A DNA stretch of 46,802 bases. Source: Chitinophaga pinensis (GTDB lineage: Bacteria; Bacteroidota; Bacteroidia; UKL13-3). Below, one piece after another: positions 29,133-38,174 of this stretch. The position numbers and the translations under genes are program-made. Location: contig CAMDHZ010000021.1 in the NCBI GenBank assembly GCA_945898275.1, forward strand, positions 1 through 46,802. Direction: 5' to 3'. Each line of letters begins with the position of its first letter. Position 1 is the first letter of the stretch. The notes under the pieces are model-generated. The model was not told where the DNA came from and made no database searches. It was given only the letters and a program-made list of their open reading frames with translations.

Positions 29133-30023
29133 ATGTTTGCTATTAATTATTTTGAGCAGGTGTATGATGCTTTGCTTTCTGATAAAACCAGAAAAAAAAC
29201 GGAGAAGGTAATTCTATCGATTGCTATTGCTAGCTTTTTAGTGCACCTAGCAATCATATTTTTGGTAGATTATCAAATTATTGATTTAACCAGTAACTCG
29301 GAACTTCTTAAAAATCCAATTGCTGCTATTTACACGCCGTTTTCCTTTATCCTAGTGTATGAGGTTTACTTGCTGATTTATTATCTACCAAAATCCCTTA
29401 CTACTTATATTGGTAAACAGTATGAAATTATTTCACTAATCATCATTCGGAGGTTGTTTAAAGACCTCTCCAACCTGTCTCTTACCCCAGATTGGTTCAA
29501 TATAAAATATGATTTGCAGTTTACATACGACCTAGTGGCTTCTGTATTTCTCTTTTTTTTAATTTATCAGTTTTATAAGTTTAGCAAGCAAAGACAAACA
29601 ATTGCTGAGGCAGACGAGGTTGGTTCCCTAAATTATATTAACCTAAAAAAGCGCCTTGCAGCATCTTTGGTAATTGTAGTTTTTGCAGTAGCTATATACG
29701 CTTTTGTTAGTTGGCTCTATGGTGCCATTCATGCATCCAACAATCAAACAGTATCCTTTAAGAACATCAACAACATTTTCTTCGAACAATTTTTCACCAT
29801 TTTAATTGTAGTGGATGTAATCTTACTTTTATTCTCATTTTTTCATACAGACACCTTTTATGTAGTATTTAGAAACTCTGGATTTATCATTTCCACTATT
29901 TTAATTAGGATTTCCTTTTCAGTAACGGGCCTTTTAAACACCTTACTCATTCTTTCAGCCATTGTTTTTGGACTATTGATACTTATGATTTCTAAAAAGT
30001 TTGAAAAACACCTGCTTATTTAA
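29133..30023 (+). CDS. Multi-pass membrane protein, unrecognised
   Basis: 296 aa with about seven hydrophobic segments, for example ~25-46, ~70-88, ~132-147, ~176-196, ~219-236 and two between ~245 and 288. Charged loops separate them (LSDKTRKKTEKV, KFSKQRQTIAEADE) and the end is KKFEKHLLI. No catalytic motif was seen. It lies 62 nt after the two small membrane genes and 587 nt before the rhodopsin. Function unknown. Confidence 0.7.
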   Translation: MFAINYFEQVYDALLSDKTRKKTEKVILSIAIASFLVHLAIIFLVDYQIIDLTSNSELLKNPIAAIYTPFSFILVYEVYLLIYYLPKSLTTYIGKQYEIISLIIIRRLFKDLSNLSLTPDWFNIKYDLQFTYDLVASVFLFFLIYQFYKFSKQRQTIAEADEVGSLNYINLKKRLAASLVIVVFAVAIYAFVSWLYGAIHASNNQTVSFKNINNIFFEQFFTILIVVDVILLLFSFFHTDTFYVVFRNSGFIISTILIRISFSVTGLLNTLLILSAIVFGLLILMISKKFEKHLLI

Positions 30024-31365: not shown

Positions 31366-31406
31366 AAAGGGAGGTTGCACTCATTACAGTGCTTCCTCCC
31401 TTTTTT
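31366..31406 (+). terminator. Terminator after the rhodopsin gene
   Basis: AAAGGGAGG-TT-GCACT pairs with AGTGC-TT-CCTCCCTTT across a six-base loop, followed by a run of T. It lies between the rhodopsin and the crtY-blh fusion, so the two are probably made at different levels or from different promoters. Confidence 0.85.
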
Positions 31407-31437: not shown

Positions 31438-33450
31438 ATGGAAGCAAATAATTTTATTGTTCGGGTTGAACCAAGCGTCAGATATGATTATATATTTTGC
31501 GGTACTGGGGCATCAGCTTCGTTATTATTATTGGAGCTAGAAAGAAATAATTTGCTTCTACATAAAAGGGTACTCCTAATAGACCCAGAAAACAAAAACA
31601 GAAAAGATAAAACCTTTTGCTTTTGGTCTACAGAGGATGAACCCATTACCCAAAATTTAAACCCATTGATTTCAAAATCCTGGGATACGATAGCGCATAC
31701 ACCTTTAGAACAATTAAGTCTTTCACCACTTAGCTACAATCATGTAGATAGCATTGACCTGTACCATAAGATTCAATCACTAGCAGAAATTCATCATTGG
31801 GATAAAATAGTTGGATACGTTACTGAGTTTGCCAAAGAAGCCGAAGAAACTTTTGTAGTGGTAAATAGCACTAGGATAGCTGGTCAGAATATTTTTGATT
31901 CGAGACCACCTGTTCACCAGCCAGCACAAAGCAATGAAGTGCATATCTACCAAAGCTTTATTGGATGGATAATTGAAACCGAAAGTGCTGTTTTGAACCC
32001 AGATGTATTTAAGTTTATGGACTTCAACATTGCGCAACAAGGATCTACGCAATTTGTATATGTACTGCCCTTTTCTTCAAATAAGGCACTTGTTGAAGTT
32101 ACTAGATTTGGGTCAAACCAAATTAATACAACAGAAGCAGAAGAAATACTAAAAGATTATATCCTAAATTACTATGGCAACTATAAAATACTAGATGTTG
32201 AAAGGGGCAGCATTCCTATGAGTAACACAAAAATTGAAAGTGAAACCACTGAAGGAGTTATCAACCTAGGGGCTAGAAATTATAATATTAAACCGAGCAC
32301 CGGGTATGCCTTTAAAAATATGTATTACCAAGCATTGGCTATAACTGAAACCCTAAAAAGTGGCGGTAACCTTAGTGCTTTTAACAAAGACCACCACAAT
32401 ACTTTTAAAGGGCGTTTTGCCTTTTATGACGCTTTACTTTTGGATATTCTAAAAAATAATCCAAGCTATGGGAAACCTATTTTTATTGAACTATTGAAAA
32501 AGGTTGAGACCAAAACAACTTTAAAGTTTCTTGATGAACAAACCAATTTGATTGAGGAGATTTCTATTTTCTTGCAATTGCCTTGGAAACCTTTTTTGCA
32601 AGCCTTGTTTAAAAAAATCATTTCTACTTCTTGGGTTCAACCACTAATCCTATTAGGTATTACTTTACTTTTTGTACTGTTAAATAAATTCGCTGCTTTA
32701 CAAAATCTAGTTGGGTATGCATTGTTTTTCATAGGAATGGTTGCGGTTGGCATTCCGCATGGAGCAGTAGACCACTTGCTTGAAACTGGCAATTGGGACT
32801 TAAAAAAAGCACCCATTTTTGTATTGAAGTACTTATTTTTAGCTGCATTGATGGGTTTGATTTGGTATTTTCTTCCATCTCTTGCGTTAATAGGATTTCT
32901 GGTATACTCGAGTTGGCACTTTGGCCAAGCAGATGGCAAAAAGTGGCGCTTTAATCCTTTAACTTCTTTGCTTTGGGGAGCCTCAGTACTAGCGTTTATT
33001 TTGGGAACTCATTTGGATGAAGCCAATACTATATTAGTTGGCATGGGTAATATAAGTTTGCCATTTAATGTTCCAGTTTGGGCATTATTACCTTGGATGA
33101 TTTGGGCATTGTTTCGAAAACAAACTGGATTTGTGCTTACCCTTATTTGGTTGAGTTTGTCGAGTCAAATTCCCCTAATGTTGTCGTTTGGACTTTACTT
33201 TATAGGGCAGCATAGCCTTACAAGCTGGAAGCATCTTCAATTGCATTTAAAGATAAGCAACAAAATTATTTGGCTGCAATCGCTGCCTTTTCATTTAGGG
33301 GCATGGCTGATACTAGGATTTTTCTATTTCTTTTGGCCTTTGCAATCTGAATTTAATCAAAGCCAGCAATGGGGAATTTTCTTTATTTTCATTGCTTGTA
33401 TTAGCTTCCCGCATGTCATTGCCATGCATGGGATGTATAGGAAACAATAG
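31438..33450 (+). CDS. Fused lycopene beta-cyclase (CrtY) and beta-carotene 15,15'-dioxygenase (Blh)
   Basis: A single 670-aa frame with two enzyme domains. Residues ~15-385 are a CrtY-type lycopene cyclase: dinucleotide-binding start YDYIFCGTGASAS, KTFCFWS (59-64), FIGWIIE, FVYVLPFSSNKALVEVTRFG (206-225), RGSIPMSNT and INLGARNYNIKPSTGYAF. Residues ~397-668 are a Brp/Blh-type membrane dioxygenase with several hydrophobic segments and the family histidines: GIPHGAVDH (H441), SSWHFGQAD (H494), GQHSLTSWKH (H592) and PHVIAMH (H659, H664). Expected reactions are lycopene to beta-carotene and beta-carotene to two retinal. These are normally separate proteins; no stop or frameshift is visible at the junction. 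It lies just after the rhodopsin that needs the product. Confidence 0.9.
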   Translation: MEANNFIVRVEPSVRYDYIFCGTGASASLLLLELERNNLLLHKRVLLIDPENKNRKDKTFCFWSTEDEPITQNLNPLISKSWDTIAHTPLEQLSLSPLSYNHVDSIDLYHKIQSLAEIHHWDKIVGYVTEFAKEAEETFVVVNSTRIAGQNIFDSRPPVHQPAQSNEVHIYQSFIGWIIETESAVLNPDVFKFMDFNIAQQGSTQFVYVLPFSSNKALVEVTRFGSNQINTTEAEEILKDYILNYYGNYKILDVERGSIPMSNTKIESETTEGVINLGARNYNIKPSTGYAFKNMYYQALAITETLKSGGNLSAFNKDHHNTFKGRFAFYDALLLDILKNNPSYGKPIFIELLKKVETKTTLKFLDEQTNLIEEISIFLQLPWKPFLQALFKKIISTSWVQPLILLGITLLFVLLNKFAALQNLVGYALFFIGMVAVGIPHGAVDHLLETGNWDLKKAPIFVLKYLFLAALMGLIWYFLPSLALIGFLVYSSWHFGQADGKKWRFNPLTSLLWGASVLAFILGTHLDEANTILVGMGNISLPFNVPVWALLPWMIWALFRKQTGFVLTLIWLSLSSQIPLMLSFGLYFIGQHSLTSWKHLQLHLKISNKIIWLQSLPFHLGAWLILGFFYFFWPLQSEFNQSQQWGIFFIFIACISFPHVIAMHGMYRKQ

Positions 33451-37379: not shown

Positions 37380-37552
37380 TACTGGATTCTGTTAAAAGAG
37401 CAATCATTTTTTAATAAAAGACACCTATATGTGATCATGGGAATTTGAGCTTGGCGGGTTTAGTTTGCGCAGGAAATGAAAGTGTAACCTTAAGTCAAAA
37501 GGTATAACAAATATGGATTTGGTGCCTAAGTGGATATTTGTTAAATTTGAAA

Positions 37553-37855
37553 ATGAACATTGAGGTGCCAAAAATCAATCAAATTATTTTGCTTTGTAAA
37601 GAAAACAAGGTTAAAACGCTTTATGCTTTTGGTTCAGTAACCCGAAAAGATTTTAACGAAACCTCAGATATTGATTTGGTAGTAGATTTTGAAGAAAAAG
37701 ACCCGTACACCTACACCGATCTTTATTTTAACCTTAAATGTAAACTCGAAGAATTACTTAAACGTCAGGTTGACCTAATTGAGGAAAGAGCAATTAAGAA
37801 TCCCCTATTCAGACAACAACTTGAAAGTACCAAGGTAAAAATTTATGGATACTAA
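37553..37855 (+). CDS. mntA: MntA-type antitoxin nucleotidyltransferase
   Basis: 100 aa from the ATG at 37553; a TTG at 37538 would add five residues. It has the minimal nucleotidyltransferase signature AFGSVTRKDFNETSDIDLVV: G27-S28 and the metal-binding D39 and D41. In characterised pairs, MntA adds AMP to a HepT tyrosine to silence the toxin. It overlaps the downstream HepT gene by 11 nt, the usual layout. Confidence 0.85.
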   Translation: MNIEVPKINQIILLCKENKVKTLYAFGSVTRKDFNETSDIDLVVDFEEKDPYTYTDLYFNLKCKLEELLKRQVDLIEERAIKNPLFRQQLESTKVKIYGY

Positions 37856-38174
37856 TATCAAAACCTGGTTGATAGACATGCAACAAAGCATTGAGGAGAT
37901 TTTTGAGTTTCTTGGAGAGACCAGAGATTTTTATGCTTATCAAAAGGATTTGAAAACAAAAAAAGCAGTTGAAAGAAATCTAGAAATAATAGGTGAAGCT
38001 GTTAATAGAATACTAAAAGTTGACAGTACCTTTCCACTAAGCGATGCCAAAAACATTATTGGTACACGCAATCGAATCATACACAGCTATGACAACATAT
38101 CTGATGAAGTTATATGGACTATTGTAAGCAGAGATCTCCCAAAATTAAAGATGCAAATTGAAAAGCTTCTATAG
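37845..38174 (+). CDS. hepT: HepT-type HEPN ribonuclease toxin
   Basis: 109 aa, all-helical HEPN family. The catalytic motif R-x4-H-x-Y is intact in GTRNRIIHSYD (R75, H80, Y82); Y82 is the expected AMPylation target. NLEIIGEAVNRI upstream is also typical. It pairs with MntA through overlapping genes. The toxin appears active, so the pair is probably functional. Confidence 0.87.
   Translation: MDTNIKTWLIDMQQSIEEIFEFLGETRDFYAYQKDLKTKKAVERNLEIIGEAVNRILKVDSTFPLSDAKNIIGTRNRIIHSYDNISDEVIWTIVSRDLPKLKMQIEKLL

Follow-up and report, generated by a model that had tools for sequence, protein, structure and literature searches.

A CrtY-Blh fusion gene beside a rhodopsin gene in Bacteroidia: a candidate lycopene-to-retinal enzyme accompanied by a second lycopene cyclase

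The window analysed here (the whole stretch of 46,802 nt from contig CAMDHZ010000021.1, assembly GCA_945898275.1) carries a long open reading frame next to a rhodopsin gene (Table 1). A first-pass annotation made from the letters alone had read this 670-codon frame as a fusion of the lycopene cyclase CrtY and the beta-carotene dioxygenase Blh, and we confirmed the frame, both Pfam domains and the rhodopsin match. The motifs on which that reading was based (KTFCFWS, KPSTGYAF, GIPHGA, WHFGQ, GQHS and PHVIAMH) are present in the translation. The best solved chains matching the rhodopsin were proteorhodopsins, and the D, T and E of its RYxDWxxTVPLxxxEF stretch, which we take to serve as proton acceptor and donor, stand in register with them. 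Upstream of the rhodopsin gene lies a gene for a 296-aa protein (29133-30023, +) that matched no Pfam or NCBIfam model.

Table 1. Features of the fusion locus, in window coordinates.
Feature	Position	Strand	Details
Proteorhodopsin-type rhodopsin, 240 aa	30611..31333	+	Pfam E 1.2e-42; 104 nt upstream of the fusion
Terminator-like hairpin followed by a T run	31366..31406	+	-23 kcal/mol; between rhodopsin and fusion
crtY-blh fusion gene	31438..33450	+	One open frame, 670 codons
Lycopene cyclase half, PF05834, residues 17-389	31486..32604	+	Pfam match; 34/36 conserved columns
Junction between both Pfam matches, residues 390-432	32605..32733	+	Contains the cyclase C-terminus and the first Blh helix
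Brp/Blh beta-carotene 15,15'-dioxygenase half, PF15461	32734..33438	+	Conserved H441, H494, H592, H659

PF05834 and PF15461 were the only Pfam domains found in the fusion protein. The cyclase match (Lycopene_cycl; E 9.7e-42, 143.8 bits against a cut-off of 23.4) is full-length, covering profile positions 1-378 of 380, and the BCD match (residues 433-667; E 3.3e-30, 106.1 bits against a cut-off of 28) is likewise complete. Among NCBIfam models, the second half passed the Brp/Blh family TIGR03753 (114.9 against 95.25 bits). The cyclase half missed both the CrtY equivalog TIGR01789, with 47 of the 215 bits needed, and the subfamily TIGR01790, with 84 of 209.5; four standalone Bacteroidota cyclases likewise scored under these cut-offs (45-61 and 79-98 bits, respectively). 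Because of these missed cut-offs, the cyclase half is filed under PF05834 and not under the equivalog. In the alignment, the first helix of the Blh half begins in the fused frame right where standalone cyclases normally end, so that neither domain is truncated and a free linker is minimal or absent. With both enzymes in one chain, the 1:1 ratio proposed in the first-pass annotation follows directly.

Structure prediction, one of the checks proposed at the outset, gave a confident AlphaFold model of the whole fusion (pLDDT 86.9, pTM 0.75, 23 sequences), and in our judgement this pTM is above what would be expected for two halves without a fixed mutual relation. The Blh half modelled alone was all-helical (pLDDT 85.5), and both models support a helical membrane-type domain for this half. 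The best 50 matches listed in a fold search with the whole model were flavoproteins of the geranylgeranyl-reductase/hydroxylase kind, and none of them matched the Blh half. A search with only the Blh model gave no match with E <= 0.001 among solved structures, and by sequence the fusion protein had no real match in the PDB (best E 0.28). Its best viral fold match was the lycopene cyclase of the giant virus ChoanoV1 (402 aa).

A database search for matches spanning both domains identified full-length fusions in many relatives. Among 60 related genomes, 20, including the window genome itself, contained a match that spans both halves without a stop, and the other 19 matches were 36-92% identical to the window protein. 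The genome_contigs set, drawn partly from the same genomes, gave 19 loci, comprising 13 full-length fusions (all in records titled metagenome-assembled genomes), 3 unfused crtY-blh pairs and 3 standalone cyclases. In total, the searches yielded 51 distinct fused proteins, 634-702 aa long, whose domain matches are 20-39 residues apart; broken or cut copies were left out of this set (L042/L161 in G002, L046, L156 in G317, L157 and L163 in G394, L158 and L159 in G295, and L076 in G357).

In a class sample of 395 Bacteroidia genomes, the fusion was present in 33, spread over 11 families and 18 genera. The same sample contained a BCD match in 72 genomes, a PF05834 cyclase in 88, a rhodopsin match in 90 (86 of them over the cut-off) and a CrtYcd-type cyclase in 211. 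A phylum sample of 198 genomes added 17 BCD-bearing genomes from outside the class, none of which had a BCD frame longer than 394 aa. In plasmids, matches in 16 records were confined to the cyclase half and none covered 80% of the query, and no relative of the fusion was found in viral_contigs.

Three arrangements of the two genes were observed: blh separate from crtY and in many cases next to a rhodopsin gene; overlapping crtY and blh; and the fusion. In the 10 unfused crtY-blh pairs, the gene order is that of the fusion and the overlap is 4-29 nt; such pairs are the natural forerunner of the fusion. The BCD tree grouped all 51 fused rows with one standalone blh in a single clade (support 99). 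The first CrtY tree placed the 51 fused, 6 overlapping and 2 fragment rows in a clade (support 98), with the fused rows L120 and L128 apart from the other 49; after removal of the two fragment rows, the topology holding all fused rows together had the higher likelihood, by 11.7 (AU p 0.79). A single fusion event is compatible with these trees and is not rejected by the AU test, and the fusion was probably derived from an overlapping crtY-blh pair of the type still present in relatives. One branch of the CrtY tree, with support of 91 (below the 95 mark), split 61 blh-linked from 41 standalone cyclases, and the former appear to make up a distinct lineage. The standalone blh inside the fused clade (L068, 1477-2325, -, G253 C146) has lost its cyclase half; its host has another blh beside a rhodopsin gene. 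A broken fusion copy (L161, 2-10501, G002 C200) is interrupted in the Blh half, so that a frame of 571 aa precedes a Blh frame of 108 aa; a rhodopsin gene adjoins it.

Both halves of the window protein are well conserved. The cyclase half retains 34 of the 36 columns conserved in 51 unfused CrtY proteins, including G22 and G24 (the GxG of the FAD fold), E220 and E255, and differs at F60 and Y282; the acidic LxExT site, which is catalytic in PF05834 cyclases, is likewise kept. The Blh half retains all 17 columns conserved in 30 unfused BCD proteins, including H441, H494, H592 and H659. Against the 92%-identical L002, dN/dS was 0.17 for the cyclase half and 0.19 for the Blh half, and purifying selection acts on both; in the very close pair L007/L008, where changes are few, the values were 0.48 and 0.14. 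Judged by the Pfam matches, conserved columns and dN/dS together, both halves look intact.

We then compared individual residues of fused and unfused cyclases. Position 60 is W in all 51 other cyclases and F or Y in 49 of the 51 fusions, and the otherwise near-invariant G at position 282 is changed in 28 of 51. At position 173, H is found in 39 of 41 standalone cyclases, and S in 49 of 51 fusions and in 6 of the 10 overlapping pairs, and fusions mostly carry A in place of Y234. Since near-invariant sites are affected, cyclase activity may be altered or lost in the fused proteins. The fusion-specific residues could either tune the cyclase towards closing two rings or weaken it.

Within the class sample, 32 of the 33 genomes with the fusion have a rhodopsin gene. 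It lay within 1.2 kb of the fusion at 34 of the 51 loci, and at 28 of these it was upstream and co-directional. A hairpin similar to that of the window occurred at 25 of these 28 loci, with 0 expected from mononucleotide shuffles; a terminator consensus scan found no excess in the region, and the hairpin at 31366-31406 was not among its matches. A working hairpin would mean that more rhodopsin pump than fused enzyme is made. Two records titled Cryomorphaceae have a second rhodopsin gene downstream of the fusion (L007, 8529-8789, +; L008, 3958-4677, +).

In the window genome, the single PF05834 match and the single BCD match both fall within the fusion. The possibility that the fusion is the genome's only lycopene cyclase was nevertheless rejected, since a CrtYcd-type cyclase was found in the same genome. 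This gene (PF18916, contig C29) overlaps by 4 nt a gene for a 150-aa PF04116 hydroxylase, which is called CrtZ-like from its size and place only, and a CruF-like PF04240 gene adjoins the pair; the CrtYcd, CrtZ-like and CruF-like genes are tightly ordered (L168, 4149-6017, -). Contig C2 carries idi and a phytoene-synthase-family gene in addition to crtI, which scored 712.5 for NF058655 (cut-off 640). The crtI, crtB and CrtYcd genes of this genome are thus separate genes on contigs other than that of the fusion.

We extended the count of lycopene cyclases to the class sample, using thresholds of E 1e-15 for PF05834, for which four candidates were scored per genome and a further copy could be missed, and E 1e-8 for PF18916. 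A second lycopene cyclase was found in 38 of the 40 genomes with crtY and blh fused or overlapping, a figure that combines 31 of 33 fusion genomes with 7 of 7 overlapping-pair genomes. Two fusion genomes, G315 (77% complete) and G376 (92% complete), showed one cyclase. G295, G317 and G394, in which the copies are cut or frameshifted, were set aside; two of them show two cyclases and one shows one. Where blh lies elsewhere (29 genomes), two cyclases were never found: 28 genomes had one and the remaining genome had none. These 29 include G357, whose blh is cut by a contig end and may belong to a fusion, G024, with a fragment, and G067, below the cut-off; the count without them was 0 of 26. Among 195 genomes with a cyclase and no blh, both cyclase families occurred in 2.

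The difference between blh-linked and unlinked genomes gave a Fisher p of 2e-17 with kinship ignored; after correction for kinship on the BCD tree, 3 of 3 independent pairs were in the expected direction (p 0.25), a number of pairs that cannot reach significance. The second cyclase was CrtYcd in 31 of the 38 genomes and another PF05834 protein in 7; with two unrelated families involved, it is less likely that all hosts inherited it from one common source. A CruF-like gene was present in 38 of 40 blh-linked against 20 of 29 unlinked genomes (Fisher p 0.006), and so is common in the latter too. PF00494 and PF04116 searches covered 29 of the 33 fusion genomes: 28 had a phytoene-synthase-family gene, and 13 had a short frame, about as long as CrtZ, that matches PF04116.

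We propose that the fusion is a bifunctional enzyme that leads from lycopene to retinal and keeps this branch separate from that of the pigments, a reading to which we assign a probability of roughly 0.7 and in which both activities are predicted from sequence. The N-terminal FAD-type lycopene cyclase would close lycopene to beta-carotene, and the C-terminal Blh domain would cut beta-carotene to retinal for the neighbouring rhodopsin; for this chain we infer a membrane arrangement. The fused cyclase would be an extra one dedicated to retinal, with the second cyclase, here CrtYcd with its CrtZ-like and CruF-like neighbours, serving other carotenoids. The presence of an extra cyclase beside the pigment cyclase suggests a private supply line for retinal. 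Given a second, unrelated cyclase in the genome with CrtZ-like and CruF-like genes, a separate retinal branch is a better reading of the fusion than a kinetic shortcut only.

The likely gain lies in the supply of two-ringed beta-carotene. CruF would hydrate one end of lycopene or gamma-carotene and so divert it to monocyclic pigments, and a cyclase tied to Blh would therefore secure beta-carotene for cleavage. CrtY of Nonlabens spongiae alone is reported to yield beta-carotene and, with CruF, mainly the monocyclic 1'-hydroxy-gamma-carotene (PMC11855829). Algoriphagus is reported to produce monocyclic flexixanthin with predicted crtYcd, cruF and crtZ (PMC10784355), a set that the CrtYcd, CrtZ-like and CruF-like genes of the window genome resemble. 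We suggest only tentatively that the pathway is insulated as well, in that both rings would be made and beta-carotene passed to the dioxygenase unreleased, while of two parallel cyclases one would be reserved for the rhodopsin's retinal and the other would serve the monocyclic pigments towards which CruF would otherwise draw lycopene.

It seems rather unlikely that a crtY-blh-rhodopsin cassette was simply transferred into hosts that had a pigment cyclase, with a neutral fusion, shared beta-carotene and no insulation. Such co-inheritance would fit the existence of unfused overlapping pairs, the spread of fusion genomes over 11 families and a second cyclase that differs from host to host. However, the fusion has been kept across a large divergence (36-92% identity), and a neutral fusion should split more often than is seen in 51 or more rows, where L068 alone has clearly lost its cyclase half and a single broken copy was seen, in G002. 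Quite improbable is a cyclase half of lost or changed activity that acts as a carotenoid-binding or FAD-bound chaperone, the second cyclase supplying beta- or gamma-carotene. The fusion-specific changes at W60, H173 and G282 are in its favour. Against it stand the retention in the window protein of 34 of 36 conserved columns, of the GxG motif and of E220 and E255, and a dN/dS of 0.17 for the cyclase half. The second cyclase, moreover, is frequently a CrtYcd protein, and at least one such protein has been reported to be a monocyclase (PMC2889829). An assembly error or chimaeric frame, a worry raised with the original reading and prompted here by a draft genome of 106 contigs, is already refuted as a general explanation, because the 51 distinct fused homologues share domain order and spacing and many come from separate assemblies, so that the fusion is real.

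Returning to the bifunctional lycopene-to-retinal enzyme, we compared it with known systems. The first-pass annotation knew of no described example; this stands for a bacterial CrtY-Blh fusion in the open-access literature searched (which included PMC13043013), and fails for a protist. The same open-access search found no account of a second, retinal-linked cyclase. The nearest precedent in this literature is a protein of the protist Thecamonas trahens with CrtI, CrtB, CrtYcd and Blh domains (PMC10016063). In both cases, a lycopene cyclase domain is directly followed by a C-terminal Blh in a single chain. The T. trahens protein, however, is eukaryotic and has four domains, and its cyclase is of the unrelated membrane CrtYcd type, whereas the window fusion has two domains with an FAD-type CrtY (PF05834), is bacterial, occurs in many genomes and adjoins a rhodopsin gene. 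CrtI, CrtB and CrtYcd domains are absent from the window chain, which thus falls outside the T. trahens type.

Other known systems differ further. The separate crtY and blh genes of proteorhodopsin-bearing bacteria belong to the same two families and often adjoin each other and a rhodopsin gene, but they make separate proteins, and genomes with blh unlinked to crtY had two cyclases in 0 of 29 cases. The thraustochytrid CrtIBY (PMC10016063) and the fungal phytoene synthase-cyclase (PMC2889829) are carotenogenic fusions that also place consecutive carotenoid enzymes in one chain; they stop at beta-carotene or earlier, and none joins an FAD-type CrtY to Blh. ChoanoV1 has crtY, blh and rhodopsin genes clustered together (PMC10016063), but its cyclase is a separate protein of 402 aa, and no fused counterpart was found in viral_contigs.

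Rhodopsin function hinges on the supply of retinal, and the division of lycopene between retinal and protective pigments has been little studied. A cyclase-dioxygenase fusion whose cyclase is, in nearly all cases, an additional one offers a testable case of a dedicated branch. For annotation, a blh-linked CrtY serves as a marker and should not be counted as a pigment cyclase. A single lycopene-to-retinal gene would also be convenient when rhodopsin systems or vitamin A pathways are assembled in laboratory hosts.

The pigment branch in other Bacteroidia has a hydratase-cyclase fusion of its own, with PF04240 followed by PF18916 in CruF-CrtYcd proteins of about 456 aa (L169, G088 C9, 2465-3838, -; L170, G165 C7, 2083-3450, -); G215 may carry a third. 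The window itself contains several further genes downstream of the fusion. These encode a BRO-N domain protein of 279 aa (PF02498; 35430-36269, +), an HNH endonuclease (PF13391; 39447-40421) and, at 37538-38174 (+), a nucleotidyltransferase (PF01909) paired with a HepT-like protein (PF01934), which we take to be the usual make-up of an MNT/HEPN toxin-antitoxin system.
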